This document shows positions 39,461-59,449 of a stretch of DNA of 64,000 nt, one piece after another; position 1 is the first letter of the stretch, and each line of letters begins with the position of its first letter. The notes under the pieces are model-generated. The model made no database searches. It was given only the letters and a program-made list of their open reading frames with translations, and was not told the origin of the DNA. The stretch is taken from NCBI RefSeq assembly GCF_030464885.1, contig NZ_JALPRJ010000044.1:1-64000 (forward strand), given 5' to 3'. Made by a program: the position numbers and the translations under genes. Source of the DNA: Caballeronia sp. SEWSISQ10-4 2. Its GTDB lineage: Bacteria; Pseudomonadota; Gammaproteobacteria; Burkholderiales; Burkholderiaceae.

Positions 39461-40153
39461 TTACATCGCGGGAATCATCACCGGAACATCGGTATGGTCC
39501 TCCACGCCCTTGACGCCCTGCACTTTTTCCGCAGCGATGCACATGGCACGCGCTTGCTCGGACGAAGTGACGACGCCCCATAAATGAACCGTGCCTTCAT
39601 TCACAATGACGTTCTCGGCGGGAACGGCCCAGCGGTGACCGCTAAGTTCTCGAAGGACTGCCTCGCGGATGGATTGATCGGCGGCCACCACTTTCACCCC
39701 CGATTCCTTTGGCGCACTCGCCAACGCCTTCACCAGATTCGCCCTGCTAACGATTCCAAGAAGCTCGCCGTCGTAGAGCACCGGAACACGCTTGATTCGA
39801 TGCCGCTCAAGAAGATCGGCTATTTCACGCATCGGTGTTGTCTCTTTCACGGTAATCACCTCGGGCGTCATGACGTCCCTCACCAATCGCGCGTTTTCCT
39901 TGATATAGGCCACGGCAAGATCCTGAGTCGACGAAAATAATTCGAGCCACCACGAACGTCGCCGGGCTTGCGTTCCGATCTCCGTTCTATGGAGCAAGTC
40001 GCCCTCGGTGAGCATGCCGAGCAGCCGGCCCTCGTCGTCCACTACCGGCGCACCGCTGATGTGATTGTCCGCCAGTAGACGGGCTGCCTCTCGCACTGTC
40101 GTCCCGGGCCCCACGGTGATGACAGTTCTGGTCATGATATCGACTGCTCGCAT
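39461..40153 (-). CDS. Tandem CBS-domain protein with C-terminal BON domain
   Basis: A 230-residue protein. Two CBS repeats (MTRTVITVGPGTTVREAARLL and MTPEVITVKETTPMREIADLL) form a nucleotide-sensing Bateman module, and the C-terminal ~70 residues (VKVVAADQSIREAVLRELSG, IVNEGTVHLWGVV) are a BON domain. It may sense adenylate energy state and touch a membrane or partner. I start at ATG 40153 with a GAGGAG ribosome site. Homologues are typical of low-oxygen loci, and an FNR-type site lies 107 bp upstream. Confidence 0.93.
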   Translation of the reverse strand: MRAVDIMTRTVITVGPGTTVREAARLLADNHISGAPVVDDEGRLLGMLTEGDLLHRTEIGTQARRRSWWLELFSSTQDLAVAYIKENARLVRDVMTPEVITVKETTPMREIADLLERHRIKRVPVLYDGELLGIVSRANLVKALASAPKESGVKVVAADQSIREAVLRELSGHRWAVPAENVIVNEGTVHLWGVVTSSEQARAMCIAAEKVQGVKGVEDHTDVPVMIPAM

Positions 40154-40259
40154 GTGCTTCTCCTCAATGTGATCGAGCGAGCGCTTGAAAGAGGAAAGAA
40201 CCTCCCTCATCAGGACTCGCCTACAGTAGGAATGCTAGTGAAGGATCGCGCCCCGGACT

Positions 40260-40273
40260 TGACTCAGATCAAC
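40260..40273. promoter_or_regulatory. FNR-type box upstream of the CBS-BON gene
   Basis: TTGAC-TCAG-ATCAA matches the FNR consensus TTGAT-N4-ATCAA with one change. On the minus strand a -10-like TAGCAT (40238-40233) sits 31 bp from the box centre, the class II activation geometry. Confidence 0.75.
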
Positions 40274-40321
40274 CGTGCCGCCGTTCACCCCGCCAACAAC
40301 GCGACAACAACGCAACCACGA

Positions 40322-40936
40322 CTAGAAACGCATCCCCACGCCAACGCCGACTACCAGCGGGTCGATCTTGAGCGACCCCAGGGCGACACCGTCCGCCGAC
40401 GCGCTGGTGCGCATCCAGATTTTCTTGATGTCGAAGTTGACAAACAGATCGTGCGCAACCTGCACGTCTACGCCCGCTTGCAGCGCTGGCCCGAAACTTG
40501 AGTTCTTGATCGAGACAGGCGTATCTCCGGCGTGAAGCCCGTTGTTGTAGAACAGCGTGTAGTTCACGCCTGCGCCGACATAAGGGCGGACCTTCCCCGC
40601 AGCGTTGAAATAGTACTGAAGCAAGAGCGTGGGCGGCAAAACGTTCACGCCGCCAAGCGCCCCGCTGTTCGAGCTGACCTGATGGCGCGACGTGGCGAGA
40701 ATCAACTCAATACCAATGCTCGGGCGCACCATATAAACAAAATCGAGTTCGGGGACGATCGTGTTCTTGGCCCCCGTCCCGAAGCTTCCAAGCGTGCCGC
40801 CCGCGGAGACTTCGGGCTCGATGCTGATTGCCCTGACTCGCGCGAGGATGTCGCCTTGATCGGCCTGGGCCGGCAGGCATACCGCCGATAACGCCGCGCT
40901 CAATAAAGCCGCTGCAAGTAATGAATGTTTTCTCAC
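40322..40936 (-). CDS. OmpW-family outer membrane protein
   Basis: A 204-residue small beta-barrel protein. I choose GTG at 40936, preceded by GGGGAAG, because it gives a signal peptide MRKHSLLAAALLSAALSAVCLPAQA; the frame continues upstream to 41215 but adds ~93 unrelated residues. The body PEVSAGGTLGSFG..., YVGAGVNYTLFYNNG, VHDLFVNFDIKKIWM and the final VGVGMRF match OmpW (C-terminal Phe). OmpW makes a hydrophobic channel. It lies between the CBS-BON gene and a histidine kinase. Confidence 0.85.
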   Translation of the reverse strand: MRKHSLLAAALLSAALSAVCLPAQADQGDILARVRAISIEPEVSAGGTLGSFGTGAKNTIVPELDFVYMVRPSIGIELILATSRHQVSSNSGALGGVNVLPPTLLLQYYFNAAGKVRPYVGAGVNYTLFYNNGLHAGDTPVSIKNSSFGPALQAGVDVQVAHDLFVNFDIKKIWMRTSASADGVALGSLKIDPLVVGVGVGMRF

Positions 40937-41246
40937 CAATCTTCCCCTGTTTTTTCCGGTCGCGAATGCGTTTTCCGTTTCTGGATTTTCCGAATGCCGC
41001 CGGCGTTGCGCCATGACGTGGATCAGAAAACCGGCATAACAAGGGTGCGGGGTATTGCGCATTTCCAGAGAGAGGCGCCGTCCGCTTTCCACACCGGCGT
41101 CAAGCCCATTCCCGGCTGGCCACCCGGCGTACCGCGCCGTATACAATTGATCCCGGGCGAACATGCTCTCAGCCAGTCCATGCATCGAGCGGGCGGCGGG
41201 CCGGCGGTTTAACAAGCCATACGAGCAATCCGAGCGGGAGAACCAC
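40937..41246. other. Divergent promoter region of OmpW and the PAS kinase
   Basis: 310 bp between GTG starts. The sequence is moderately AT-rich near 40940-40990 (OmpW side). No perfect FNR-type palindrome was found here; only half sites such as GTGGATCA at 41022. Nothing else was recognised. Confidence 0.45.
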
Positions 41247-42443
41247 GTGCCAAGCGATCCATTGTCTTCACCTCAGCCGGACAGCGCGCCAGCGAGCGAC
41301 GAACTGGCAAGCAAGGCCTTCCCGCATACGTTGAGCGATACCCATTTCAGGCTGCTGGTCGACTCGGTACAGGACTACGCCATCTTCATGCTGGATCCTG
41401 ATGGGCGTGTCGTGAGCTGGAACCGCGGCGCGCAAAGCATCAAAGGCTACGTTGCCGGGGAAATCGTCGGACAGCACTTTTCGGTGTTCTATACACCCGA
41501 AGATGTTGCGAGCGGCAAGCCGCACGCGGAACTGGCGCTGGCCGCATCGGAAGGTCGCATTGAAGACGAAGGCTGGCGCATGCGCAAGGACGGCTCGCGC
41601 CTTTGGGCGAACGTAACGATCACCGCAATCCGCGCACCAGATGGCGCGCTTCACGGTTTCGCCAAAGTGACACGCGATATGACCGATCGCCTGCGGCTGA
41701 TTGAGCTTCAGCAAGCGAGCGAGTTGTCCTCACATGTGCAAGGCGCACGCGAGGAAGAAAGAACCCGGATCGCGCGCGAGCTTCACGACGATCTAGGCCA
41801 GCAACTGGTCGCACTCAAGATGGACGTCGCTTTGCTGGATCAGGCCGCGACGGGCGACGGCAAGACCGCGTGTCACGCCATCTCGCAGACGATCGCGTTG
41901 CAGAGGCAAATCGATTCGATCATCGCCTCGGCACGGCGCATTGCCGGAGGTCTGCGTCCACCCATGCTCGACGATCTGGGCCTCGCGGCCGCGCTCGAGT
42001 GGCTCGCTGCGGAATTCCGTAACCGTTACGGCCTGGTCGTCGCCGTGCAAAACACAACGGGTCAACTGTCATTGTCGGCAACGGCCGCAACCGCGATGTT
42101 TCGAGTGGTGCAGGAAGCACTGGCCAACGTAACGCGTCACGCTGAAGCCACCCAGGTACGCGTCGAAATGCGGCTCGCGCAAAATGAATTCCGGCTGCAC
42201 GTCGAGGATGACGGAAAAGGGACCACGCTCGACGGTAACCGAAGCAACGAGAATTTCGGATTGCTCGGCATGCAGGAGCGAGTGCGTCAGTTGCGCGGGA
42301 AGATCGCCTTTGACAGCGCGCCTGGCGATGGATTTCGAATCGACGTCCGATTACCCATCGAAGTGGTTAAAGCAAAAGACGACGGCAACCAAGACGCCTC
42401 TCTTGCACGCCGGGCTACAGATGAATCGTTTCCGAGCGCTTGA
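41247..42443 (+). CDS. PAS-domain sensor histidine kinase (HisKA_3 type)
   Basis: A 398-residue soluble kinase. The PAS domain (LVDSVQDYAIFMLDPDGRVVSWN ... GEIVGQHFSVFYTPEDV) ends in a PAC region with MRKDGSRLWANVTITAIR. The dimerisation motif EEERTRIARELHDDLGQQL contains the phosphoacceptor His. The ATPase has VVQEALANVTRHAEAT and VEDDGKG, then a FGLLGMQERV G-box. It starts with GTG at 41247 (GGGAGAACCAC upstream). No membrane segment was seen. No response regulator lies next to it; a similar kinase and regulator are at 46203/47486, so the two may share an output. Confidence 0.93.
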   Translation: MPSDPLSSPQPDSAPASDELASKAFPHTLSDTHFRLLVDSVQDYAIFMLDPDGRVVSWNRGAQSIKGYVAGEIVGQHFSVFYTPEDVASGKPHAELALAASEGRIEDEGWRMRKDGSRLWANVTITAIRAPDGALHGFAKVTRDMTDRLRLIELQQASELSSHVQGAREEERTRIARELHDDLGQQLVALKMDVALLDQAATGDGKTACHAISQTIALQRQIDSIIASARRIAGGLRPPMLDDLGLAAALEWLAAEFRNRYGLVVAVQNTTGQLSLSATAATAMFRVVQEALANVTRHAEATQVRVEMRLAQNEFRLHVEDDGKGTTLDGNRSNENFGLLGMQERVRQLRGKIAFDSAPGDGFRIDVRLPIEVVKAKDDGNQDASLARRATDESFPSA

Positions 42444-42651
42444 GCTGGATCCATACCATGCCCTCGCGCAGGCCATCGAGCACCGTCTCGCACTCGGTTG
42501 TGAAGATTTCCGAGTGCCGGAATCGATGCTTGAATTCACCACTCGCGCCACCGTGGCCAACGTACACTTCGCAGCCAAAGCCGCCGTCGACCGGGAAAGT
42601 CTGGGAGGAAACGATCCAGTCGTCCCCAGTCACTTGACCCGTGATGGCCAT
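42415..42651 (-). CDS. Small conserved hypothetical protein
   Basis: A 78-residue protein starting MAITGQVTGDDWIVSSQTFP, with GGFGCEVYVGHGG and ending SETIHL. A strong ribosome site AGGGAGAAACGAC lies before the ATG, and the codon pattern differs from an antisense shadow. It overlaps the kinase by 29 bp at its 3' end, on the opposite strand. I recognise no domain; similar small proteins occur near stress genes in Burkholderia. Function unknown. Confidence 0.7.
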   Translation of the reverse strand: MAITGQVTGDDWIVSSQTFPVDGGFGCEVYVGHGGASGEFKHRFRHSEIFTTECETVLDGLREGMVWIQLKRSETIHL

Positions 42652-42736
42652 GTCGTTTCTCCCTTACTCTGCGACCGGACGGTCGCCCGTTTTTGGCTGC
42701 ATCGACGCCCGCAACGACGGAACCGCATCAGCTTCG

Positions 42737-43774
42737 TTACGCCTCGATGATCACCTTCAGCGCATGCGTATCGGCGGCCTGAGCGAAGGTATCGTAGGCC
42801 TTGATGACGTCGTTCAGGCCGAACCGGTGGGTAATGAGCTTGCCCGCTTCCAGGCGCCCTGAACGCACGGTCTTGAGCAGCATGGGCGTGCTGACAGTAT
42901 CGACCAGCCGTGTCGTAATCGAGATGTTGCGGTCCCACAGGCATTCCATATGCAGGTCGACTTTCACGCCATGCACGCCGACATTGGCGATGGTGCCCCC
43001 GGGCGCAATGATCGATTCGCATAACTCGAAGCTGGCCGGCACGCCAACCGCTTCGATCGCGCAATCCACGCCAACGTTGCCGGTCAGGTTCATGATCTCG
43101 GCGACCGGATCGCCACTCGAATTGTTCACGCACGCCGTCGCGCCGAAGGTTCGCGCCACTTCCAGCCGGTTCGCATCGCGGTCGATCATGATGATTTGCG
43201 CCGGTGCATAGAACTGCGCCGTGAGCAATGCAGCAAGGCCAATAGGACCTGAGCCGACAATGGCGACCGTGCTGCCCGGCTGCACTTTCCCGTTGAGCAC
43301 ACCGCACTCGAAACCGGTCGGAAGAATGTCCGACAGCATGACGAGTGCTTCTTCGTCAGCACCGGCGGGGATGGGATACAGGCTCGTTTCCGCGTGCGGA
43401 ATGCGCACATATTCGGCTTGCGTGCCGTCGATCCGGTTGCCGAGAATCCAGCCACCTGTCGTGCAATGGGAGTACATGCCACGGCGGCAGTAATCACATT
43501 TCCCACACGACGTGATGCAAGAAATAAGGACGTGGTCGCCGGGTTTGAACGTCGAAACCGCTGCCCCCACTTGCTCGATTACGCCGACGCCCTCGTGTCC
43601 CAGGATGCGGCCCGGCTCACAGGTTGACACGTCACCTTTCAGGATGTGCAGATCGGTACCGCAAATCGTCGTGCGCGTGACTCTGACGATTGCGTCCGTG
43701 GCCGACATGAGCTTCGGCATCGGCCGTTCGTCGAGAGATTTTCTGCCGGGTCCGTGATACACGAGTGCCTTCAT
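42737..43774 (-). CDS. Zinc-dependent alcohol dehydrogenase (medium-chain)
   Basis: A 345-residue MDR-family dehydrogenase. Zinc and catalytic motifs are TICGTDLHILKG, GHEGVGVIEQVG and the structural cluster CGKCDYCRRGMYSHC; the NAD fold has AIVGSGPIGLAALL. ATG 43774 (MKALVYHGPG) is the family start. It probably interconverts an alcohol and aldehyde with NAD(H), likely during low-oxygen fermentation or alcohol use. An FNR-type box 71 bp upstream, with a -10-like TAAAGT properly placed, supports anaerobic induction. Confidence 0.92.
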   Translation of the reverse strand: MKALVYHGPGRKSLDERPMPKLMSATDAIVRVTRTTICGTDLHILKGDVSTCEPGRILGHEGVGVIEQVGAAVSTFKPGDHVLISCITSCGKCDYCRRGMYSHCTTGGWILGNRIDGTQAEYVRIPHAETSLYPIPAGADEEALVMLSDILPTGFECGVLNGKVQPGSTVAIVGSGPIGLAALLTAQFYAPAQIIMIDRDANRLEVARTFGATACVNNSSGDPVAEIMNLTGNVGVDCAIEAVGVPASFELCESIIAPGGTIANVGVHGVKVDLHMECLWDRNISITTRLVDTVSTPMLLKTVRSGRLEAGKLITHRFGLNDVIKAYDTFAQAADTHALKVIIEA

Positions 43775-43844
43775 CGTCAATCTCCATTTGTCGGGGGAAA
43801 GGGGCTTCCATGACAAAACTTTAGGCTCGCGGACGGCGGCGCGG

Positions 43845-43858
43845 TTGACCTATATCAA
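43845..43858. promoter_or_regulatory. FNR-type box upstream of the alcohol dehydrogenase
   Basis: TTGAC-CTAT-ATCAA matches the FNR consensus with one change. The minus-strand -10-like TAAAGT (43823-43818) is 31 bp from its centre. Confidence 0.8.
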
Positions 43859-43951
43859 CCGATAAGGACATGGGCGGAGAGGCCGGCCTGGTGAGAATGG
43901 AGAACGGAGGATGGCAACGGGTCCGTTCAAGATGCGCCGGTATGCGCTTGC

Positions 43952-43965
43952 TTGATCTGCGTCAA
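43952..43965. promoter_or_regulatory. FNR-type box upstream of the universal stress protein
   Basis: TTGAT-CTGC-GTCAA matches the FNR consensus with one change. A plus-strand -10-like TAGACT (43987-43992) is 31 bp from its centre. Confidence 0.8.
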
Positions 43966-44095
43966 CGGAAAAAAAGCGCGAAGTCATAGACTTTTTGTAA
44001 GCGTCCGCGGATCTGGACAGATTCTGGACCAACTCCGGTTGCTTACTCAGTCACAGACTCACCGGCCCCCCAAGCCCACCAACGGAGTATTTGCG

Positions 44096-44935
44096 ATGAG
44101 CTACAAGAGCATTGTCGTTCAACTCGACATGAGCGCGCGCGCCCATCCCCGCCTCGAATATGCGATGCGTCTCGCCAGGCAGTTCGGCGCACACCTCACC
44201 GGCGTGTTCTCGGCATTCACCCCTGACCCGCGTTCCTTCTACATCATGGCCGGCGCGGCCGACTACTATGAAGCGCACCGCCAGTCCCGTCAGGAGCGCC
44301 ACGGCGCACTCGAGCGGATCTTTCACGCGGAATTGTTGCGGGCGGGCGTGACGGGGCAATGGATCGACCACCACGATTCCGCGAGCGAAGCGATCCCTCG
44401 CTATGCGCGCTACGCGGATCTGGTCGTGGCCGGACAGGACGATCCGGACGATCCGGAATCGTTTATCGCCGATCACTTCCCCGAAACGCTCGTCATGTCC
44501 GCGGGCCGGCCTGTGCTCTTCATTCCCTATACAGGCGTGTTTCCCACGCTCGGCGCGAATATCATGGTTGCGTGGAACGGCAGCCGCGAGTCGGCTCGTG
44601 CTGTCCACGATGCCCTGCCGCTGCTGCAGCGGGCCGAAAACGTCACCGTTGTCAGACTCAACGAACACAAAGACGAGCTGCGTGACAGCCGCATTCCGGG
44701 AGCCGACATCGCGCTCATGCTGGCGCGGCACGGCGTCAAGGCGGAAGTGGCGGCACTCGACGGTGTCGGCAACCTGCCGCTGGGCGACGTACTGCTTTCG
44801 CGCGCGTCAGACCTGGGCGCCGACCTCGTGGTCATGGGCGCGTATGGCCACTCGCGCTGGCAGGAACTCGTGATGGGCGGTGCGACGCGCGGCATGCTGG
44901 AGTCCATGACGGTGCCGGTTTTGATGTCGCATTGA
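44096..44935 (+). CDS. Tandem universal stress protein
   Basis: A 279-residue protein with two UspA domains. Domain 1 starts MSYKSIVVQLDMSARAHPRL. Domain 2 begins near residue 155 (NIMVAWNGSRESARAVHDALPLL) and has the ATP-binding motif VMGAYGHSRWQELVMGGATRGML (G-2x-G-9x-G(S/T)). It likely binds ATP and aids survival in stress. ATG 44096 has a GGAG ribosome site. An upstream FNR-type box suggests oxygen control. It is 28 bp before another Usp gene. Confidence 0.93.
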   Translation: MSYKSIVVQLDMSARAHPRLEYAMRLARQFGAHLTGVFSAFTPDPRSFYIMAGAADYYEAHRQSRQERHGALERIFHAELLRAGVTGQWIDHHDSASEAIPRYARYADLVVAGQDDPDDPESFIADHFPETLVMSAGRPVLFIPYTGVFPTLGANIMVAWNGSRESARAVHDALPLLQRAENVTVVRLNEHKDELRDSRIPGADIALMLARHGVKAEVAALDGVGNLPLGDVLLSRASDLGADLVVMGAYGHSRWQELVMGGATRGMLESMTVPVLMSH

Positions 44936-44963
44936 TGATCCGTTGAAGCCAAGGAGATTCTTC

Positions 44964-45437
44964 ATGTACGCCCGCATTCTTGTGCCGATCGACGGCAGCG
45001 AAACGTCGGCGCACGCCCTCGACGCCGCTTTGGAACTAGCCCGCGAACACGACGCGGAACTCAAGCCGATTTATGTGGTGGACGCACCGCAACTGATGTA
45101 TTCGGGGCCGGTCAGCGATCCTTCGGTCATCCGCGAAGCCTTGGTCAAGGAGGGCGAGCACGTGCTCGCCGACGCTACCGCGAAGATGCTGCGCGCGGGT
45201 GTCAAAGGCTCGACACGCGTCCTCGAAGTCGAACTTGTCGGTGACGACATCTCGCAGCAGATCACGGCCGCCGCGAAAGAGTTCGGCGCCGATCTTGTGG
45301 TCATGGGCACACACGGGCGGCGCGGATGGCGGCGGCTCGTGCTGGGCAGCGTCTCCGAGCGCTTCTTGCGGATTTCAACCCTGCCGGTGCTGCTGGTTCC
45401 GCTGAATTCCGCGGAAAAGAGGGACCTCGCGCGGTGA
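44964..45437 (+). CDS. Universal stress protein (single domain)
   Basis: A 157-residue UspA domain protein: MYARILVPIDGSETSAHALD at the N-terminus, and VMGTHGRRGWRRLVLGSVSERFLR as the nucleotide-binding loop, with a typical final STLPVLLVP. The ATG has AAGGAGATTC before it; a TTG 21 bp upstream is less likely. Likely in one operon with the tandem Usp. Confidence 0.94.
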   Translation: MYARILVPIDGSETSAHALDAALELAREHDAELKPIYVVDAPQLMYSGPVSDPSVIREALVKEGEHVLADATAKMLRAGVKGSTRVLEVELVGDDISQQITAAAKEFGADLVVMGTHGRRGWRRLVLGSVSERFLRISTLPVLLVPLNSAEKRDLAR

Positions 45438-45465
45438 GCATACCGGACGTTGCCGGCGCATCCTT

Positions 45466-45537
45466 ATGAGCGATAAGACTATCCTGATCCATCTCGATGC
45501 CCGAGCGAAGCCGCACGGCCTACCCAAACCGCGCTAG
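45466..45537 (+). pseudogene. Truncated universal stress protein start
   Basis: Twenty-three codons, MSDKTILIHLDARAKPHGLP..., ending at a TAG. It resembles the first residues of the tandem Usp at 44096 (MSYKSIVVQLDMSARAHPRL): same start, hydrophobic strand and LD/ARAxxH pattern. It seems to be the 5' stub of a deleted Usp gene. It ends inside the tail of the opposite-strand Usp gene. Confidence 0.5.
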
Positions 45538-45992
45538 GACGCCAGTGCCACGTCACGTTGATCGTCACGAACGGTGAGGACCGGAACATGACTCGATCGC
45601 AAAACCGTTTCCGCAACGCTGCCCAGCAGATGCCGGCGCACGGCACGCGGTCCATGCGCGCCCATCACGATGAGATCCGCTCCGAATGCCTGAGCAGCTT
45701 GCATGAGCGCACCGGGAACGCTCGCACCGTGCGCATCGATTATCTGGGTGACGCCACGTATCCGGTTTCGCGCGCAGAAGTCGCGCGCGTGATCGAGTTG
45801 CCGGCGTACGGTCACATCGACCGCTTCTGCTTCAACAACCCCAAGCGCGGAATCGCAAATAGACACGTCGTGCGAGACAACGCGCGCCACCATCAACATC
45901 GCATCGGCGGCCTGCGCCAGCTTGAGCGCCTCTTTGAGCGCAAGACGCGCGCTGAGGCTGCCGTCGAGAGCCACGAGAATTCGTTTGTACAA
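45534..45992 (-). CDS. Universal stress protein (single domain)
   Basis: A 152-residue Usp: MYKRILVALDGSLSARLALKE at the start, VMGAHGPRAVRRHLLGSVAETVLR as the ATP loop and SSHVPVLTVRD at the end. It is divergent from the histidine kinase at 46203, with an FNR-type box between them. Confidence 0.93.
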   Translation of the reverse strand: MYKRILVALDGSLSARLALKEALKLAQAADAMLMVARVVSHDVSICDSALGVVEAEAVDVTVRRQLDHARDFCARNRIRGVTQIIDAHGASVPGALMQAAQAFGADLIVMGAHGPRAVRRHLLGSVAETVLRSSHVPVLTVRDDQRDVALAS

Positions 45993-46060
45993 AATCTGCT
46001 CCCCGGATATCGTCTACGCTTTAGTAAGCTTCAGTGTCCGCGCACAGGTCCGCTCGCCGC

Positions 46061-46074
46061 TTGATCCACATCAA
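46061..46074. promoter_or_regulatory. Perfect FNR-type box between Usp and histidine kinase
   Basis: TTGAT-CCAC-ATCAA matches the FNR consensus in all ten bases. The -10 hexamers are weaker: a minus-strand GACACT about 32 bp from the centre is the best candidate for the Usp gene. Confidence 0.85.
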
Positions 46075-46202
46075 TTCACACTGTCGGCTGGCTCATGACA
46101 TGGAGCTTCACGTCTGCCCGCCGCACGGAACAGATCGAGAACGGCACGGGCTGTTCAGCGCAATCTCGGCCTCGCGCGTTTTTTTCCTTTCTCGGAGACA
46201 CC

Positions 46203-47489
46203 ATGTCCGGGCCACCCACCGCACGGCGTAACACGGCACCGCAGCGTAGCAATCGTCGACGGACTCGCTACGCCCGCGCAACTGGCATTGCCGGGATGGC
46301 CGGCGCCCTTCTGCTCGCCGCAAGCGCGGGCTCCATGGCGCGCAGGCGCAAGACGAAGGATCAAGTGCCCTCCACTCCGTCACCGCTTGGCGAAGCACGA
46401 TTGCTCGGCATCATCCGGTCGTCGATGGAAGCGATCATCACCATCGACGAAAACCAGCGTATCGTCATGTTCAATCCGATGGCCGAGCGTTTGTTCGACT
46501 GTCCGGCGGCAGAGGCGATCGGGACCTCGCTTGCCCGCTTCGTGCCCGAGCGTTTTCGCGCCGGGCACGCCGCGCACGTTCGTCAGTTCGGCGTGACCGG
46601 CGTGTCAGACCGGCAGATGGGCGGCCGGCGCATACTGTACGGCTTGCGCACGAATGGCGACGAGTTCCCGTTCGAAGCATCGATTTCTCAATTCGACGAC
46701 GAAGACGGCAAGCTTTACACGGTGATGTTGCGCGACATCAGCCCGCAAGTCGACGCAGAACGTTCGCTGCAGCACTCGCACGAGGAACTGCGGGAGCTCT
46801 CCGCGAACCTGCTGAACATCCGTGAAGAAGAAAAATCACGCATCGCGAGGGAATTGCATGACGACCTGGGCCAGCAACTGACCGCGCTGAAAATGGATAT
46901 ATCCTCACTCGAACTTGCACCCGGAACGGATGCAGAAGCGCGCGCGCAATTACGCGGCATGCAGCGCCTGATCGATGCGACCGTGGCCTCGATGCGCCGG
47001 ATTGCCGCCGACCTGCGGCCCGTGATGCTCGACGACCTAGGGCTGGTGCCGGCCATAGACTGGCTGGCGATCGACTTTACGAACCGATACGGTATCGACG
47101 TCGAGCGGCGGATCGACGCGAGGCATACCATTTTCAGCCGCGACGGCGCTACCGCCGTGTTCCGGATCGTGCAGGAGGCGCTCACCAACGTGGCGCGCCA
47201 TGCACAAGCCACGCACGTCGATCTGTCGTTGTATCTGGAAGAGGACCGCTGCATCCTGCGCATCGCTGACGACGGCATCGGCGCGCATGAGCGTGCCGAT
47301 GCCGGGCGCAAGTCGTTCGGCCTGATCGGCATACGCGAGCGGGCGCACCGGCTGGATGGTTCGGTCGCGATCGAGTCCGGTGCCGGAAAAGGCTTCACGT
47401 TGACCGTGACCTTCCCGCTGATCACCTTGCAACAGGACGGCCCTTTCTCCGACGATCCCGAGAACACCGAGGAAGAACCACTGCAATGA
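46203..47489 (+). CDS. PAS-domain sensor histidine kinase (HisKA_3 type), one predicted membrane segment
   Basis: A 428-residue kinase. After a basic start, a hydrophobic run (ATGIAGMAGALLLAASAGS) predicts one membrane segment or signal anchor, then a PAS domain (GIIRSSMEAIITIDENQRIVMFN, FDCPAAEAIG). The His motif is EEEKSRIARELHDDLGQQL, ATPase motifs include IVQEALTNVARHAQAT and ADDGIGAH. ATG 46203 has CGGAGACACC upstream; longer starts are less likely. Its stop overlaps the response regulator start by 4 bp, so these two are partners. It is homologous to the kinase at 41247. Confidence 0.93.
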   Translation: MSGPPTARRNTAPQRSNRRRTRYARATGIAGMAGALLLAASAGSMARRRKTKDQVPSTPSPLGEARLLGIIRSSMEAIITIDENQRIVMFNPMAERLFDCPAAEAIGTSLARFVPERFRAGHAAHVRQFGVTGVSDRQMGGRRILYGLRTNGDEFPFEASISQFDDEDGKLYTVMLRDISPQVDAERSLQHSHEELRELSANLLNIREEEKSRIARELHDDLGQQLTALKMDISSLELAPGTDAEARAQLRGMQRLIDATVASMRRIAADLRPVMLDDLGLVPAIDWLAIDFTNRYGIDVERRIDARHTIFSRDGATAVFRIVQEALTNVARHAQATHVDLSLYLEEDRCILRIADDGIGAHERADAGRKSFGLIGIRERAHRLDGSVAIESGAGKGFTLTVTFPLITLQQDGPFSDDPENTEEEPLQ

Positions 47490-48133
47490 CCCGAGTATTG
47501 ATCGCCGATGACCACGCCCTCGTGCGCGACGGACTGCGCCATATCCTGCGCAGCGCGAGCGGCCTGGAGGTGGCTGGCGAAGCCAGCGACGGCGCCACCA
47601 CCATTGCCATGATCCGCGCCACCGCGGCAGACGTGCTGGTGCTCGACTTGTCGATGCCGGGCAGGAACGGGGTCGAACTGCTCAAACAGATCAAGGACGA
47701 AAAACCGGCGCTGCGCATTCTCGTCTTGACGATGCATGCGGAACAGCAATATGCGGTGCGCGCGTTCAAGGCAGGGGCGTCAGGTTATCTGACCAAGGAA
47801 AGCGCGAGCGCTGAACTCGTCACAGCCGTCAGCAAGGTCGCCGCGGGCGGGGTGTACGTCAGCCTGGCCATGGCCGAGCGGCTCGCACAAAGCTTGAATG
47901 AACCGGCCGATGATCTGCCGCACCAGCGACTTTCCGACCGCGAATTCGAAGTCTTTCGACGGATCGCGGCGGGCGAAACGATCACGCAAATCGCGCAGGC
48001 GCTGTCGGTCAGCGCCAAGACAGTCAGCACATACAAGACCCGCATCCTCGAGAAAATGCAGATGCCGCACGAAACGGCCCTGGTCCGCTACGCAATGCGG
48101 CACAAGCTCTTCGACGACGACTGCGACGACTGA
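47486..48133 (+). CDS. NarL/FixJ-family response regulator
   Basis: A 215-residue response regulator. The receiver has acidic DD near residue 9 (IADDHALVRDGL), the phospho-acceptor Asp in VLVLDLSMPG, and Lys in YLTKESASAEL. The C-terminal LuxR-type HTH is LSDREFEVFRRIAAGETITQIAQALSVSAKTVSTYKTRI. Phosphorylation by the overlapping kinase should turn on DNA binding. Its target promoters are unknown but the neighbouring stress genes are candidates. Confidence 0.95.
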   Translation: MTRVLIADDHALVRDGLRHILRSASGLEVAGEASDGATTIAMIRATAADVLVLDLSMPGRNGVELLKQIKDEKPALRILVLTMHAEQQYAVRAFKAGASGYLTKESASAELVTAVSKVAAGGVYVSLAMAERLAQSLNEPADDLPHQRLSDREFEVFRRIAAGETITQIAQALSVSAKTVSTYKTRILEKMQMPHETALVRYAMRHKLFDDDCDD

Positions 48134-48290
48134 TAAGCCTCATACGCTTGCGCCCCTCTCGCGCTGCCCGCGTGTAGTCCGATCCCTACACAGCTTCTCA
48201 AACCCCTACATCACGTCTGGCCGCCCGCCGATTTTATTTTGAGATAGCCAGGAAGATACTTTCAGGCATGAACTCAAACGGTTGCCCGCC

Positions 48291-48701
48291 ATGCTGAAGA
48301 TCTTCCTTGTCGATGACTCCGGCCTTGTGCGTCGCCGTCTCTCTACCCTGATTAGCGCGCTGGCCGGCGTGGTGATCGTCGGCGAGTCGGAAGAAGCCGA
48401 CACCGCGCTAGGGTGCATCCACATGACCCGCGCCGACCTCGTGATCGTTGACCCGCATCTGGCAGGAGGCAACGGCATGGAGATTGTCGAGTCGCTGGCA
48501 CGCGCCACCCCGCCCGTCCTTACCATGGTGTTGACCAACCATTCGGGACCGGCGTTTCGTGCCGCCTGCCGCCGCGCCGGTGCGGACTATTTTTTCGACA
48601 AGACCTGCGAATACGAACTGGCCCGCGACACGATCGAGCGATTGGCCAATGGATTGACCGATAAGCCCTGCGCCGAGCCGACGCCATGCGAGCCAGCATG
48701 A
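48291..48701 (+). CDS. Stand-alone receiver-domain response regulator
   Basis: A 136-residue protein consisting of a receiver domain only: VDDSGLVRRRL with acidic pair, acceptor Asp in LVIVDPHLAGG, Lys in FFDKTCEYEL. It lacks any DNA-binding or enzyme domain. I prefer the ATG at 48291 (MLKIFLVDDS) over a TTG at 48282; ribosome site is weak for both. It may divert or fine-tune the phosphate flow between the two kinases. It lies between the NarL-type regulator and the FNR gene. Confidence 0.88.
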   Translation: MLKIFLVDDSGLVRRRLSTLISALAGVVIVGESEEADTALGCIHMTRADLVIVDPHLAGGNGMEIVESLARATPPVLTMVLTNHSGPAFRAACRRAGADYFFDKTCEYELARDTIERLANGLTDKPCAEPTPCEPA

Positions 48702-48773
48702 CGAACCCGCTCTCAACCCGCACAGCTCGCCAAGCCCCCATTCACTGATCACCCGGCTCTTCTGGAGACAGGC

Positions 48774-49559
48774 ATGACCTCAGCTACCGCTTGCGCGTCC
48801 GCAGCTTCGAACGTGGCGCCTTCTACTTATATGGCCCACGCGGCCAGCATGAATTCGCCGCCGGCGGCTACCCGCCCGGACACGAACTGCTCCGCTTGTT
48901 CCTTGCATTCCATCTGCATGCCGTCTCAGTTGAGCGCGACCGAACTGGCCCGGCTCGATGCCATTGTCTGCTCCACGCGGCTGGTACGGCGCGGTGAGAC
49001 GCTGTACCGCGCCGGCGATGCGTTCAAAAGCATCTACGCCGTGCGGGTCGGCTGCTTCAAGACCGTCATCACGCATCGCGACGGCCACGAGCAGGTCACC
49101 GGGTTTCATATCGCGGGCGAACCGCTGGGACTCGACGGCGTATGCTCCGATGAACAGAATTGCGACGCGATCGCGCTCGAGGACAGCAAGGTGTGCGTCA
49201 TCCCGTTCGACTTGCTCGAGGATCTGTGCCACGACGTGAAAGCCATGCAGCAGCATGTGCATCGCATGATGAGCGGCGAAATCGTGCGTGAATCGGGACT
49301 CATGATGATGCTCGGCACCATGACCGCCCAGCAGCGCGTCGCTGCGTTCCTGATCAATCTTTCGTCCAGGATGAAAATACGGGGCTACTCCGCCGCGCAA
49401 TTCAACCTGCGCATGACGCGGGAAGAGATCGGCAGCTATCTCGGGCTGAAACTCGAAACCGTGAGCCGGATGTTCTCGAAGCTGCAGAAAGCAGGTGTTA
49501 TCGACACAAACGGCAAGCAAGTACATATTCTCGACAGCGAGAAGCTCGCTGGGGTCTGA
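48774..49559 (+). CDS. fnr: FNR-type [4Fe-4S] oxygen-sensing Crp/Fnr regulator
   Basis: A 261-residue regulator. Cys39, Cys42 and Cys48 (CSACSLHSIC) keep the Cx2Cx5C spacing of Escherichia coli FNR, and Cys141 in SKVCVIPF matches its fourth ligand, so it can hold an oxygen-sensitive [4Fe-4S] cluster. The effector/beta-roll portion has TVITHRDGHEQVTGFHIAGEPLGLDG. The recognition helix ETVSRMFSKLQ belongs to the group that reads TTGAT-N4-ATCAA. Five such boxes lie in the surrounding promoters. The N-terminus is longer than in E. coli by about 20 residues, with an A/S/P-rich extension. Ribosome site GGAGAC. Confidence 0.95.
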   Translation: MTSATACASAASNVAPSTYMAHAASMNSPPAATRPDTNCSACSLHSICMPSQLSATELARLDAIVCSTRLVRRGETLYRAGDAFKSIYAVRVGCFKTVITHRDGHEQVTGFHIAGEPLGLDGVCSDEQNCDAIALEDSKVCVIPFDLLEDLCHDVKAMQQHVHRMMSGEIVRESGLMMMLGTMTAQQRVAAFLINLSSRMKIRGYSAAQFNLRMTREEIGSYLGLKLETVSRMFSKLQKAGVIDTNGKQVHILDSEKLAGV

Positions 49560-49572
49560 TCGAAGCGCACAC

Positions 49573-50322
49573 ATGCCCATAGAGTATCTGCGAAGTTTCA
49601 CCCGGCCGGAGCGCACCGACCAGAATAACCGGCGCCTTGGACGCTGGCTTGCGTTTATCGCGGGCGCGGCCAACGCTGGCGGCTTTCTGGCCGTCGGGCA
49701 GTACACCTCGCATATGTCGGGGATCGTGTCGGCACTCGCCGATAACCTCTCGGTAGGCGAGATCGGTCTCGTGGTCGCAGGATTCAGTTCGCTCGCGGCG
49801 TTCATGGCCGGCGCCGCCACCTCCGCGATCATGATCAACTGGGGCCGGCGGCGCCGCGCACAAAGCGAATACGCGCTGCCGTTGATATTGGAAGCCGTGC
49901 TACTGCTTGTCTTCGGTCTGCTCGGCTCGAATCTGGAAAACAACCGGATCCTGTTCGTGCCCGCTACCGTGGCGTTGCTGTGCTACGTGATGGGCCTGCA
50001 GAACGCGATGATCACGAAGATCTCCAAAGCCGAGATCCGCACCACGCACGTGACCGGCCTCGTCACGGATATCGGCATCGAACTCGGCAAACTATTCTAT
50101 TGGAACGTGTCGGAGTCAGGGCACGGTATTGTCGTTGTCAAGGCAGACCGGTCGAGGCTCCGGCTCCTGGCATCGCTGCTCGGCATGTTTTTTATCGGCG
50201 GCCTCGCAGGCGCGCTGGGCTTCAAGTATGTGGGTTTTATATCGACCCTGCCGCTTTCGGCAATGCTGGTCGTACTGGCGGTCGTGCCGCTGATGGACGA
50301 TCTGGTAGGCCAGCGCCGGTAG
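49573..50322 (+). CDS. DUF1275 (YoaK-type) membrane protein
   Basis: A 249-residue integral membrane protein with about six hydrophobic segments, starting LAFIAGAANAGGFLAVGQYTSHMSG, the signature of the DUF1275/YoaK family. KAEIRTTHVTGLVTDIGIELGK is the second conserved segment. Function of the family is unknown; some members appear in sulfonate or stress loci. The gene starts 13 bp after the FNR stop and is probably cotranscribed with it. Start at 49573 (MPIEYLRSFT), because the longer frame overlaps FNR. Confidence 0.88.
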   Translation: MPIEYLRSFTRPERTDQNNRRLGRWLAFIAGAANAGGFLAVGQYTSHMSGIVSALADNLSVGEIGLVVAGFSSLAAFMAGAATSAIMINWGRRRRAQSEYALPLILEAVLLLVFGLLGSNLENNRILFVPATVALLCYVMGLQNAMITKISKAEIRTTHVTGLVTDIGIELGKLFYWNVSESGHGIVVVKADRSRLRLLASLLGMFFIGGLAGALGFKYVGFISTLPLSAMLVVLAVVPLMDDLVGQRR

Positions 50323-50370
50323 CAGTCTGAGCGCTTGGCCGAGCTTGGCGGTTGCGTCTGTCCTGCCTGT

Positions 50371-50384
50371 TTGACTTGTATCAA
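50371..50384. promoter_or_regulatory. FNR-type box upstream of acetyl-CoA synthetase
   Basis: TTGAC-TTGT-ATCAA matches the FNR consensus with one change. A -10-like CATAGT (50407-50412) is 32 bp from its centre. The acs start is 190 bp downstream, leaving room for a long leader. Confidence 0.75.
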
Positions 50385-50574: not shown

Positions 50575-52548
50575 ATGTCTACCATCGAAACGAGCCCTCA
50601 CGTCCCTGCTCAGGACATTCCTTTGGCAAGCCATGCCATGATTGAGAGCATGGAGGCTTACCGCGCGCTCGTGGCTGAGGCCGCGCAGGATCACGAAGCC
50701 TTCTGGGCGCGGCTTGCCCGCGAGCACCTGAGCTGGCGCCGTCCGTTCACGCAGATTCTCGACGACAAGAATGCGCCGTTCTACAAGTGGTTCGAGGACG
50801 GGGAACTGAACGCGTCGTACAACTGCCTCGACCGCAATCTGGCCAGCGGCAACGCGAACAAAACCGCGATCATTTTCGAGTCGGACGACGGCCGGGTTTC
50901 GACCGTCACCTATCAGGCGCTGTATCACCGGGTATGCCGGCTCGCCAACGCGCTGCGCGCTCGCGGCGTGAAGAAAGGCGACCGGGTAGTCATCTATCTG
51001 CCGATGTCGGTCGAAGGTGTTGTCGCGATGCAAGCATGCGCGCGTATTGGTGCACCGCATTGCGTCGTGTTCGGCGGGTTTTCCGCGAAGTCGCTTCATG
51101 AGCGGATAACGAACGTTGGCGCTGTGGCGATCATTACGGCGGACGAACAGGTTCGCGCCGGCAAGACCTTGCCGCTGAAGAGCATTGTTGACGAGGCGCT
51201 GGCGATGGGCGGCACCGACGCCGTCAAGACCGTCGTCATCTACCGGCGCACGGGCGGCCGGATTCCATGGATCGGCGGCCGCGATAATTGGCTGCACGAG
51301 CTGGAGCACGCGCAGCCGGACACCTGCGAGCCCGAATGGGTGAGCGCCGAGCATCCGCTGTTCGTGTTGTACACGTCGGGCTCCACCGGCGCGCCGAAGG
51401 GCGTGCAGCACAGTACGGGCGGCTATTTGCTGTGGGCCGCCGTCACCATGAAGTGGACCTTCGACATCAAGCCGGACGATGTCTTCTGGTGTACCGCGGA
51501 CATCGGCTGGATCACGGGGCATACGTACATCTGCTATGGGCCGACTGCCGTCGGTGCGACCCAGGTCATTTTCGAGGGCGTGCCGACTTACCCGAACGCG
51601 GGCCGCTTCTGGGACATGATCCAGCGCCACAAGGTGACGATTTTCTACACCGCGCCCACGGCCATCCGGTCTCTGATCAAGAGCGCTGACGCGGACCGCG
51701 CGGTGCATCCCGGGAGCTACGACCTGAGCACGCTGCGTATCCTCGGCACGGTCGGCGAACCAATCAACCCGAGCGCCTGGACGTGGTATGCAGAGCATGT
51801 CGGCGGCGGCAAGTGCCCCGTCCTCGACACGTTCTGGCAGACCGAAACAGGCGGTCACATGATCACGCCGTTGCCGGGTATTACCCCGCTCGTGCCGGGA
51901 TCGTGCACGCTGCCGCTGCCTGGCATAGATGCCGCGATCGTCGATGAAACCGGCCAGGAGGTACCGAACGGGCAAGGCGGCGTGCTGGTCATCAGAAAGC
52001 CCTGGCCTTCGATGATCCGCACCGTATGGGGCAACCCGGAGCGCTTTCGAAAGGGTTATTACCCCGACGAACTGGGCGGCAATCTGTATCTCGCCGGAGA
52101 TGGCGCGATTCGCGATCCCGGCACGGGTTATTTCACGATCACCGGCCGTGTTGACGATGTGCTGAATGTATCGGGACACCGGATGGGCACGATGGAAATC
52201 GAGTCGGCGCTGGCGGCCTGCCCGTTGGTCGCGGAAGCGGCGGTCGTCGGACGGCCGGACGAAACCTTCGGCGAAGCCATCGTTGCATTCGTTGTGCTGA
52301 AGGGTGAACGACCTGTCGGCGCCGACATAAAACGCGTGGCCGACGAGTTGCGCGCGTGGGTCGGCAAGGAGATCGGCCCGATTGCAAAACCGAAAGAGAT
52401 CCGCTTCGGCGACGCGATGCCAAAGACGCGCTCCGGGAAGGTCGTGCGCCGCCTGTTGCGCTCGGTCGCGAAGGGCGAAACGATCTCGCAAGACACGTCG
52501 ACAGTCGAAAATCCGGACGTGATCGCGCAGTTCGCCGATCCCTCGTAA
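50575..52548 (+). CDS. acs: Acetyl-CoA synthetase
   Basis: A 657-residue AMP-forming acetyl-CoA synthetase. The P-loop-like [16 protein letters not shown], the hinge/adenylate motif FWQTETGG, and the C-terminal [14 protein letters not shown] with the acetylatable Lys are all present. Acetate is activated to acetyl-CoA with ATP and CoA. The ATG has GAGGAGACT upstream, the length is standard (~650). It is followed by the N-ATPase operon in the same orientation (103 bp gap, no clear terminator). Confidence 0.96.
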
Positions 52549-52618: not shown

Positions 52619-54657
<2,039 letters not shown>

Positions 54658-54665
54658 GCCGAACC

Positions 54666-55001
54666 ATGACACAGCCCTCACCTGACGACATCGATCCCAA
54701 GCGCGACGCTGAACCTGACACCGACCGCATGGCCCGCGTTGCCCGGCAAGCGGTACAGCGCGAACGCCAGGCGCAGGAAGAACCGGAACCATCGCTCGGT
54801 GCCCGTCTCGGTCAGATCGGCATTCTCGGTTGGACCATCGTCGTGCCGACGCTGCTTGGGCTCGTGCTTGGCCACTGGCTCGACCGGTACTTCAACACCG
54901 GCGTGTTTTTCTCCGCTCCGTTGCTGATGGCCGGTGCGGCTATCGGTCTGTGGTCGGCATGGAAATGGATGCATCGGCAAACCCGGAGTGACCGGCAATG
55001 A
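54666..55001 (+). CDS. atpQ: N-ATPase AtpQ (AtpI/AtpZ-like membrane subunit)
   Basis: A 111-residue small membrane protein. A charged N-terminal region (~45 residues) precedes two hydrophobic helices (ILGWTIVVPTLLGLVLGHWL and FFSAPLLMAGAAIGLW). It is a characteristic third gene of N-ATPase operons. It probably helps assemble the c-ring. Its stop overlaps atpR by 4 bp. Confidence 0.9.
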   Translation: MTQPSPDDIDPKRDAEPDTDRMARVARQAVQRERQAQEEPEPSLGARLGQIGILGWTIVVPTLLGLVLGHWLDRYFNTGVFFSAPLLMAGAAIGLWSAWKWMHRQTRSDRQ

Positions 55002-55276
55002 CATATCACTTCCCGCTGGCAGCCCAGATCGCGATTGGCTTGTGTGTCGGCCTTGCCGCCGGTGCGATCCACTTCGCGACCTTGCGCTGGAATGTCCGGC
55101 TGCTGATCGCCGGCACCCCGGCCAAGGCAATCGGGCTGCAACTCCTGCGCCTCGCGGGCGTGGCCGTCCTGTTCGCCGCGCTGGCGAAGCTTGGCGCGTG
55201 GCCGCTCCTATGCGGCGCGGCCGGGCTGCTGCTGGCAAGAGGCCTCATCCTGCGGCGTGTCCAGGTGACATCATGA
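54998..55276 (+). CDS. atpR: N-ATPase AtpR
   Basis: A 92-residue protein with three hydrophobic segments and conserved-looking Arg residues inside them (FATLRWNVRLL, LQLLRLAGVAVLF). AtpR is an N-ATPase-specific membrane protein thought to interact with the c-ring through such Arg. It overlaps atpQ and atpB by 4 bp each. Confidence 0.9.
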   Translation: MTYHFPLAAQIAIGLCVGLAAGAIHFATLRWNVRLLIAGTPAKAIGLQLLRLAGVAVLFAALAKLGAWPLLCGAAGLLLARGLILRRVQVTS

Positions 55277-55971
55277 TTGCTTCGCCTCTCGCCACTGCCA
55301 CCCTCTTCGATATCGGCCCGATCGGTATCTCGGCACCCGTAGTGGCGACGTGGGTCATCATGGCCCTGCTCGCGGGCGGCTTCGCCTGGATCACCCGCCG
55401 GTTGTCGCTCACGCCGTCGAAAATGCAGACAGTGCTCGAACTGCTGGTCAGCACGATCGACGACCAGATTCGCGACACGATGCAAGCCGAGCCCGAACGA
55501 TATCGCGCGCTGGTGGGCACGCTCTTTCTTTTCATTCTGGTCAGCAACTGGTCGTCGCTCCTGCCCGGTGTCGAGCCTCCTACCGCTCACGTTGAAACCG
55601 ATGCCGCGCTAGCTTTGATCGTGTTCTGCGCGACCATTTTCTACGGCGTACGCACGCGTGGTCTCGGCCGTTACCTCGCCACCTTTGCCGAACCCACGTG
55701 GATCATGATTCCGCTCAACGTGGTCGAGCAGATCACGCGGACCTTCTCGCTGGTGGTGCGTCTGTTCGGCAACGTGATGAGCGGTGTCTTCGTCGTCGGC
55801 ATTGTGCTGTCGCTCGCCGGGCTGCTCGTGCCCATCCCGTTGATGGCGCTCGACCTGCTGACCGGCGCGGTACAGGCCTACATCTTCAGCGTGCTGGCAA
55901 TGGTCTTCATTGGCGCAGCGCTAGCCGAAAACTCCGCAAACACTTCCAGCAAACAGGCAGGCCGGCAATGA
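55273..55971 (+). CDS. atpB: N-type F-ATPase subunit a
   Basis: A 232-residue membrane subunit a. SLVVRLFGNVMSG includes the essential Arg of the ion channel and LTGAVQAYIFSVLAMVFIGAA the C-terminal helices. The ATG at 55273 overlaps atpR by 4 bp; the upstream frame to 54934 is not used. Its stop overlaps the c-subunit start. Confidence 0.95.
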   Translation: MIASPLATATLFDIGPIGISAPVVATWVIMALLAGGFAWITRRLSLTPSKMQTVLELLVSTIDDQIRDTMQAEPERYRALVGTLFLFILVSNWSSLLPGVEPPTAHVETDAALALIVFCATIFYGVRTRGLGRYLATFAEPTWIMIPLNVVEQITRTFSLVVRLFGNVMSGVFVVGIVLSLAGLLVPIPLMALDLLTGAVQAYIFSVLAMVFIGAALAENSANTSSKQAGRQ

Positions 55972-56216
55972 ACAATCTGATCCAGGTAGTGAGCATTCTC
56001 GCCGCGGCGCTCGCCGTTTCATTCGGCGCGATAGGACCGGCGCTCGGCGAAGGCCGCGCGGTCGCGGCCGCGATGGATGCGCTCGCGCGCCAGCCGGAGT
56101 CGGCCGGCGCGATTTCGCGGACGCTGTTCGTCGGCCTTGCGATGATCGAGACCATGGCGATCTACTGCCTGGTGATCGCCTTGCTCGTGTTGTTTGCGAA
56201 TCCGTTCGTGAAGTGA
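55968..56216 (+). CDS. atpE: N-type F-ATPase subunit c
   Basis: An 82-residue c subunit with two hydrophobic helices and a polar loop (ALARQPESAG). The ion-binding Glu lies in helix 2 (AMIETMAIYCL). ARQPE supplies the Gln and ETMAIY the Glu, Thr and Tyr expected at a Na+-type site, but the position after Thr is Met rather than Thr as in Ilyobacter. This makes Na+ coupling likely for the family but not certain here. Confidence 0.95.
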   Translation: MNNLIQVVSILAAALAVSFGAIGPALGEGRAVAAAMDALARQPESAGAISRTLFVGLAMIETMAIYCLVIALLVLFANPFVK

Positions 56217-56229
56217 GCGAGCACTGATC

Positions 56230-56964
56230 ATGCACATCGACTGGTGGACTCTTCTGCTGCAGACCGTTAACGCGCTGGTGCTCGTCTGGTTGTTGGCGCG
56301 CTTTCTGTTTCGCCCGGTGGCGAAGATCGTAGCCGAGCGCCAGCATGCAGCCGCGGCGCTGATGGCCGATGCCGCCGCAGCAAAAGCCGCGGCGCTCGAC
56401 GAACAGCAGAAGGCCGCCGCCGATAGCGCTCAAGTCGCAGCGCTGCGCGCACATCTGCTCGATGCAGCGACAGCCGAAGCCGCGCAACTCAAGGCGTCGC
56501 TCGAGAACGCGGCACGTACCGACACAGAGCAGATGCGCGCGGCCGCGCAAACCGCGATCGACGCCAGCCGGCGTGAAGCCGCTGCTGCCGACTCCGATCG
56601 CGCATCGCAATTCGCACTCGATGTCACGGCGCGGCTCCTCGATCGCCTGCCCGCCGAGGCACGGATCGCGGGTTTCATCGACGGACTGGCGCGTGAGCTC
56701 GCCGCACTGCCCGAGGCTACCCGGGCACAGCTGACCGGCGACGGTGAAGCAGTCCGCCTGATCGCGCCTCGCGCACTCACCGTCGACGAACTGGCCGCGT
56801 GTCACACGGCGTTCACTCAGGCGCTCGGCCACCCGTTGCAGGTTCAGGTCACGGTCGATCCCGCCGTGATCGCAGGACTTGAACTGGAAGCGCCGCATGC
56901 GCTCGTGCGCAACAGTTTTCGCCACGATCTCGCCGGCCTGAAAACGGAGCTCCTCGGCTCATGA
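56230..56964 (+). CDS. atpF: N-type F-ATPase b subunit with delta-like C-terminal domain
   Basis: A 244-residue b-type subunit, longer than housekeeping b (~156). One membrane helix ([20 protein letters not shown]) is followed by a long Ala/Glu/Arg-rich coiled coil. The last ~90 residues ([19 protein letters not shown] ... [15 protein letters not shown] ... [12 protein letters not shown]) resemble the C-terminal domain of delta (SVDPxLIGGxxxxxGDxxxDGSxRxxL). Since no atpH gene lies in the operon, this domain probably joins the stalk to F1. Overlaps atpA by 4 bp. Confidence 0.93.
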
Positions 56965-58520: not shown

Positions 58521-59449
58521 GTAACAAACTCAGCGAAGTCCAGGCGCGCATGAACGGCGTGCACGGACTCGAATCCGTGGTCGGTGCAATGCGTGGCATC
58601 GCTGCAGCACGCTCGCGTAAAGCGCGCAGCCGTCTGGACGGTATTCGGGCGTGCGCGCAGATAGTCGGAGCGGCGATCGGCGACGCGCTGCTGCTGATTG
58701 ACGAACACACGACGCACGACGCCACGGACCTGGATCGAGGTGCAGATCGGGACGCAGCCGTGGTGATCGTCCTGTGCGCAGAACAGGGTTTTGTCGGTAC
58801 GTTCAACGAGCATGCCATCGACGCGGCGCTTGCATCGGCCGCCGCATCAACGCGATCCTCGTCGACGGAATATCTGGTGCTCGGCGGCCGCGGAATCGTG
58901 ACGGCGGCCGAACGCGGCCTAAGCGTTGGCTGGTCGGCGCCGATGGTCACCCATGCCGACGAAGTGCCGGCGCTCGCCGATCGCCTCGCCAGTGCTCTGT
59001 TCCAGCGTCTCAACGCCGGGCGGGCGACCCGCGTAACTGTGGTCCACGCAACACCGAACCCGTCAGCAAGCGTCGAGATCGTGGAACAAACATTGCTGCC
59101 GTTTGACTTCGGGCGATTCCCGATCACACCGCGTCGCGACCCACCCCTCATTACCGTCGCGCCCCGGCGCTTGCTGACGCAGCTCGCGGACGAATACATC
59201 TTCGCTCAGCTGTGCGAGGCCATCATGCTGTCGTTCGCCGCTGAGAACGACGCGCGTATGAGGGCCATGATCGCCGCACGCACGAACGTGCATGACAGAC
59301 TCGAAGCATTGACCGGTGACTTTCGCCGGCTGAGGCAAGAGGAGATCACGTCGGAAATCGTCGAGCTTTCCGCAGGAAGCATTACCGCCGGCAGACTTTC
59401 AAAAAAACCGCGCCCGCGCAACGGACACAGATCCAACCCCGCCTTCTGA
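58517..59449 (+). CDS. atpG: N-type F-ATPase gamma subunit
   Basis: A 310-residue gamma subunit. The N-terminal coiled helix ([36 protein letters not shown]) and C-terminal helix ([37 protein letters not shown]) form the rotor shaft. Start at ATG 58517 overlaps atpA by 4 bp. It is longer than E. coli gamma, with a basic C-terminal tail (KKPRPRNGH). Confidence 0.94.

Follow-up and report, generated by a model that had tools for sequence, protein, structure and literature searches.

The DNA analyzed here, referred to throughout as the window, is the stretch of 64,000 nucleotides at positions 1 to 64,000 of contig NZ_JALPRJ010000044.1 from Caballeronia sp. SEWSISQ10-4 2, the genome of which comprises 9.44 Mb in 212 contigs. 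Between positions 39461 and 52548, the window carries a block of genes encoding a CBS-BON protein, a zinc-type alcohol dehydrogenase (ADH), universal stress proteins (Usp), a PAS histidine kinase, a NarL/FixJ-type and a receiver-only response regulator, a four-cysteine FNR-type regulator, a membrane protein and acetyl-CoA synthetase (acs), behind which lies an alternate F1Fo ATPase operon (Table 1). Five palindromes of the form TTGAY-N4-RTCAA, the sequence expected of binding sites (boxes) for FNR-type regulators, are found within this block. Its relatives belong to Caballeronia: C. mineralivorans PML1(12) has a protein with 98% identity to the FNR of the window, and the plasmids of Caballeronia sp. 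SBC1/SBC2 match the 46-52 kb stretch at 87%, with 94% of the query covered.

Table 1. Predicted genes and FNR boxes of the block, in window coordinates; distances to the -10-like hexamers are measured from the box center.
Feature	Position	Strand	Remarks
CBS-BON protein gene, predicted FNR target	39461..40153	-	Pfam CBS x2 + BON; box 105 bp upstream of start
FNR box of CBS-BON gene	40259..40272	-	TAGCAT centered 31 bp downstream
Zinc-type alcohol dehydrogenase (ADH) gene, predicted FNR target	42737..43774	-	Pfam ADH_N, ADH_zinc_N
FNR box of ADH gene	43845..43858	-	TAAAGT at 31 bp
FNR box of tandem Usp genes	43952..43965	+	TAGACT at 31 bp
Two-domain universal stress protein (Usp)	44096..44935	+	Pfam Usp
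Usp, probably co-operonic with the 44096..44935 gene	44964..45437	+	Pfam Usp
Usp, more likely target of box 46061	45534..45992	-	Pfam Usp; weak GACACT
FNR box between Usp (-) and histidine kinase (+)	46061..46074	-	GACACT at 32 bp, Usp side
PAS histidine kinase (HisKA_3), PAS resembling FixL heme PAS; unsupported as class II target	46212..47489	+	
NarL/FixJ-type response regulator	47486..48133	+	Pfam Response_reg + GerE
Receiver-only response regulator	48282..48701	+	Pfam Response_reg
Four-cysteine FNR-type regulator	48774..49559	+	Cys39/42/48/141, helix LETVSR
DUF1275 (YoaK-type) membrane protein	49573..50322	+	
FNR box of acs	50371..50384	+	CATAGT at 32 bp
Acetyl-CoA synthetase (acetate-CoA ligase), acs	50575..52548	+	TIGR02188, 936 bits, cut-off 725
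Alternate F1Fo ATPase operon	52652..59449	+	Recognized subunits D, C, B, E, F, A, G

Boxes were counted as exact (strict) matches to TTGAY-N4-RTCAA, with the reversed pattern as a control. The window contains five such matches (at 40259, 43845, 43952, 46061 and 50371), which are the five palindromes named in the original prediction, the first beginning one base to the left of the position 40260 given there. In 100 dinucleotide shuffles of the window, a check that had been proposed alongside that prediction, exact sites occur with a mean of 0.18 and a maximum of 2, and five sites are reached in 0 of 100. If one mismatch is allowed, 9 sites are found in the window as against 4.15 expected, a number reached by 4 of the shuffles; this excess is only slight, so that the signal resides in the exact sites. 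All five boxes lie between genes, in agreement with their claimed placement in promoter gaps, in a block (39461-52548) of which 14% is intergenic, and the chance of such a placement for all five is about 5e-5. The whole genome contains 32 exact sites, 5 of them inside the window, compared with 15 for the reversed pattern.

The boxes are also well conserved in the nine loci compared as close relatives (L021-L028 and L048). Those of ADH and of the tandem Usp genes are exact in 9/9, the box at 46061 is exact in 8/8 of L021-L028 with a single mismatch in L048, and the acs box is kept in all eight loci having acs (L021-L028). The CBS-BON box is exact in six relatives (L021, L022, L024, L025, L026, L028) and has one mismatch in L023, its region being cut off or unalignable in L027 and L048. 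When invariant columns are counted over 8-9 aligned loci (excluding L048 and, for CBS-BON, L027), the half-sites score 45 of 50, versus 282 of 844 for the other columns of the same promoter regions. The -10-like hexamer reported at 31-32 bp from the box center in four promoters is indeed present in the window and kept in the relatives, being found in 7/7 (CBS-BON), 9/9 (ADH), 10/10 (Usp) and 9/9 (Acs) of the loci with an exact box. Taken together, boxes and geometry support the prediction of class II FNR-type promoters that are kept across related loci, and the boxes themselves, the existence of which is confirmed, are very probably sites of the FNR family. The locus L048 is a copy of the block from an uncultured Caballeronia symbiont, in which several genes are split into pieces in a decay-like manner.

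The assignment of the box at 46061 required revision. On the side of the leftward Usp gene (at 45992), the hexamer GACACT stands at 32 bp and is kept in 9/9 loci, and on the kinase side no consistent -10-like hexamer was found at 31-32 bp across the 9 loci. The box is therefore better assigned to the leftward Usp gene, and the histidine kinase, which had been listed as a probable target, is rejected as a class II target for want of a conserved hexamer on that side; the remaining listed targets (CBS-BON, ADH, Usp and acs) stand as predicted targets.

The link between acs and the alternate ATPase is found in seven loci (the window and L021-L026), in each of which acs is followed by the ATPase genes. 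An exact box precedes atpD in five of the seven (L021, L023, L024, L025 and L026), in 5/5 cases with a -10-like hexamer at 31 bp, and no exact box is found before atpD in the window or in its closest relative, L022. The gap between acs and atpD amounts to 107 bp in the window (52549-52651) and 136 bp in L022, versus 263-1032 bp in the five box-bearing loci, and the ATPase box may have been lost in the window, with the ATPase here being read through from the acs promoter. The operon resembles alternate (N-type) F1Fo ATPase operons in its gene order (D, C, .., B, E, F, A, G) and in its epsilon subunit, which lies above the cut-off of the alternate model TIGR03166 (116 versus 100.1), and differs from them in that the beta, alpha, A, C, B and gamma subunits score below their NCBIfam alternate-model cut-offs. 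Elsewhere in the genome, an exact box at C168:152073 (L066:1074-1087), with TAGGAT at 31 bp, precedes a gene of the GPR1/FUN34/YaaH family, which is likely to encode an acetate permease and would fit acetate use. The block had been described as a defined regulon, and as a prediction this holds for the promoters of the block but is incomplete, as the predicted regulon is wider and takes in the ATPase operon of the relatives and the YaaH permease. A B. cenocepacia locus found by its acs match (L071) was rejected as a related locus, only acs having matched.

The presence of a four-cysteine FNR protein at 48774 is confirmed: the gene spans 48774-49559, and residues 37-259 of its product (223 residues) align with FNR chains of the PDB. 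The protein passes the NCBIfam Fnr model NF008365 narrowly (230.9 bits versus a cut-off of 228). Cys39, Cys42 and Cys48 are present in 36/36 of the FNR sequences with letters at these positions and Cys141 in 39/39, counts in which the window's own copy appears twice and the paralogue is included. A recognition helix of the form ExxSR reads TTGAT half-sites; this helix is LETVSR in the window FNR, and ETVSR or ETISR in 39 aligned rows. A second four-cysteine FNR is encoded in the genome at C75:2612, next to a Usp gene, with 45% identity and an ETVSR helix that should read the same box. No exact box was found directly upstream of fnr, and none with class II spacing precedes the operon to which fnr probably belongs. 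The original prediction spoke of boxes around 'its own' FNR gene, and such a gene does lie in the block; control of the boxes by its product is unproved, given the second FNR and the lack of a box before fnr.

In our view the block is likely to be a compact lxa-type island for survival at low oxygen, with FNR-driven class II promoters, in a Caballeronia-like host. The FNR-type protein would lose its iron-sulfur cluster in air and, at low oxygen, would bind TTGAY-N4-RTCAA boxes whose centers precede the transcript start by about 41 bp, where the bound protein would activate RNA polymerase directly (class II). Its predicted targets are the CBS-BON gene, ADH, the tandem Usp operon, the leftward Usp gene, and acs together with the alternate ATPase operon behind it. 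We infer from the FNR family that the protein acts here in oxygen sensing, DNA binding and activation. Such an arrangement would tie acetate use and the alternate ATPase to the FNR switch, and it provides a testable list of promoters for the question of how obligate aerobes among the Burkholderiaceae of soil and plants survive when oxygen is lost.

In its content the block resembles a known kind of locus, of which it would be a further example. The 50 genes of the lxa locus of B. cenocepacia J2315 (BCAM0275-BCAM0323) encode, among others, six Usp proteins and a BON protein (PMC6127331). One further member of the locus, BCAM0287, is an FNR protein that is induced 17-fold at low oxygen (PMC4505428). 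Compared by reported gene content, the lxa locus and the block have in common a Usp cluster, a BON protein and an FNR gene, and the likeness that had been claimed is borne out to this extent. A difference from B. cenocepacia lies in the boxes: of the loci compared from that species, L072 has the nearest FNR, and its strict boxes are far fewer than those of the block. The class II Anr/FNR regulons of Pseudomonas and Escherichia are alike in box, -10 spacing, four-cysteine sensor and Usp targets; Usp genes are Anr-dependent in P. aeruginosa (PMC8509486), and Anr activates cyd in B. cenocepacia H111 (PMC11742914). Compared with these regulons, the regulator gene and many boxes are here found together in one block, and the spacer of the boxes is biased toward YYRN. 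Literature searches, with most subscription journals outside their coverage, found no published description of FNR boxes in such islands among the papers listed.

The spacer bias (inner spacer YYRN or its complement, with a uniform expectation of 0.19) is built into a refined motif, TTGAYYYRNRTCAA. The rule was derived from the five boxes of the window, which are therefore no test of it. It holds in 38/43 boxes of L029-L047 (16/21 distinct), in 10/15 boxes on two Paraburkholderia plasmids, and in 2/9 boxes of the distant loci L049-L057. Exact boxes are dense around related regulators, in that 37 loci (L021-L057, being 36 loci with relatives of the window FNR plus SBC2) contain 99 boxes over 696 kb, as against a single match to the reversed control, although these loci were chosen by their FNR, so that the figure measures local box density only.

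When 57 Caballeronia genomes were surveyed with the refined motif, the median number of matches was 16 among the 37 genomes with an island-type FNR (best E <1e-80, a threshold of our own) and 3 among the 20 without, both strands being summed, so that symmetric sites are counted twice. The difference per Mb has a Mann-Whitney p of 5e-7, uncorrected for relatedness, and among genomes of at least 5.5 Mb (37 versus 10) the medians are 16 and 3.5 (p 2e-5, likewise uncorrected). Controls average 0.84 with and 0.5 without an island-type FNR. The exceptions are G042, which has the FNR and 3 matches, G023, without it and with 9, and G054, with a broken relative and 11. In 11 genomes having an island-type FNR and complete site lists (G013, with 630 contigs, had a complete list but was excluded), the refined sites number 165, and 64 of these are no more than 45 kb away from the island-type FNR, compared with 2.4 expected; the six sites of the genome studied here that lie outside the window entered this proximity count as placeholders. 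The proposition that in this genus FNR boxes occur in the island alone was rejected as stated, with 1/20 sites near the FNR in G037 and 7/28 in G041.

That the refined box tracks the island-type FNR and not the core paralogue in these 57 genomes, uncorrected for relatedness, argues against an explanation in which the boxes are real but are served mainly by the second FNR (C75), or by both FNR proteins. The local fnr would then encode a minor sensor or one of different sensitivity, comparable with the FNR sets of Pseudomonas putida and Herbaspirillum. We regard this as possible, if somewhat doubtful: the C75 protein has the cysteines and the same ETVSR helix, multiple FNR proteins of differing oxygen sensitivity have been published (PMC4505428; PMC5934665), and B. 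cenocepacia H111 does not survive anoxia once both of its anr genes are lost (PMC9104464).

The genes upstream of fnr, in the order PAS histidine kinase, NarL-type regulator and receiver-only protein, bring to mind a cascade of the FixLJ-FixK kind, in which the PAS kinase would sense oxygen via heme, the NarL-type regulator would raise fnr, and FNR would drive the targets. The kinase PAS aligns to FixL heme PAS chains with an E of 4e-8, a similarity that does not prove heme binding, and retains a histidine in 15/15 sequences with letters at that position; this residue aligns with the FixL histidine that we take to be the heme ligand. FixLJ-FixK systems likewise place kinase and regulator genes upstream of a gene of the CRP/FNR family, and in B. 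dolosa FixLJ switches on fixK when oxygen is low (PMC5234846). They differ from the present arrangement in that the FNR here retains its cluster cysteines and the kinase is of the HisKA_3 type. The HisKA_3/DesK-like core of the kinase counts against the cascade, which we consider possible but rather doubtful. For the receiver-only protein (48282-48701), identity as a FixT-like Fe-S receiver was rejected, as the four-cysteine motif around residues 53-64 of FixT (PMC7078487) is absent; Cys96 is conserved in 12/12 sequences and Cys136 in 10/10.

That the boxes represent chance or unrelated sequence, to which the modest genome-wide excess of strict boxes (32 versus 15) might point, is scarcely credible against their clustering, intergenic placement, conservation and geometry. 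Several observations nevertheless weigh against an FNR-driven island as proposed above. The 27 strict boxes elsewhere in the genome fall 14 between and 13 within genes, as placed by a rough codon-model caller, and one of the 14 (L010) sits in an open frame of 838 aa; with about half of the outside boxes in open reading frames, a strict box is no proof of function. The spacer rule holds in 6/27 of these outside boxes, which is approximately the chance level. The weights of the -10 score are of our own choosing, and GACACT, toward the leftward Usp gene, is a weak -10. Paralogues of the FixK/Anr type could use the same boxes. In B. cenocepacia, the 41 kb of L072 contain 2 strict boxes as against 0 for the control, and 5 as against 1 with one mismatch, and in G037 just the one refined site of 20 noted above lies near the FNR.

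Related islands are found on plasmids. On pOLGA1 of Paraburkholderia phytofirmans OLGA172 (L073), 11 boxes occur in 31 kb, with 0 in annotated coding sequences (CDS), among island genes for arginine deiminase, Usp, fnr, acs, YaaH and hemerythrin, and a conjugative plasmid of P. graminis carries 4 boxes in 31 kb, 1 of them inside a CDS. As a tentative extension, which may well prove too broad, we propose that Caballeronia and Paraburkholderia spread their oxygen response as portable, self-regulating islands, each with its own FNR and with class II boxes ahead of many of its operons (up to 26 boxes in 89 kb), and often borne on a plasmid or secondary replicon, such that much of a strain's FNR regulon would be acquired with the island rather than built on its core genome. 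The alternate ATPase would be a standard member, and the inner YYRN spacer common to the boxes. This would suggest joint travel of a regulator, its sites and survival genes, and comparing the box count of a genome with island presence offers a direct route to ask how gene transfer enlarges a global regulon.

In a congener (G005), contig C25 (L075-L079, 1-100000) carries 26 exact boxes over its 100 kb, distributed across 89 kb, whereas the reversed control has 0 matches; 24/26 boxes are intergenic by our own gene caller. The mean -10 score on this contig is greatest at 32 bp (3.85) and 31 bp (3.69), compared with a mean over distances of 2.65. The contig encodes FNR, the regulator, the kinase, several Usp proteins, two CBS-BON proteins and the ATPase operon, and also a polyhydroxybutyrate (PHB) synthase, a phosphate acetyltransferase-type protein and a phosphoenolpyruvate (PEP)-utilizing kinase. 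Beside its island boxes lies a further open frame (L075:8751-11177), which matches a beta-lactamase-fold domain and, behind it, NamZ muramidase domains.

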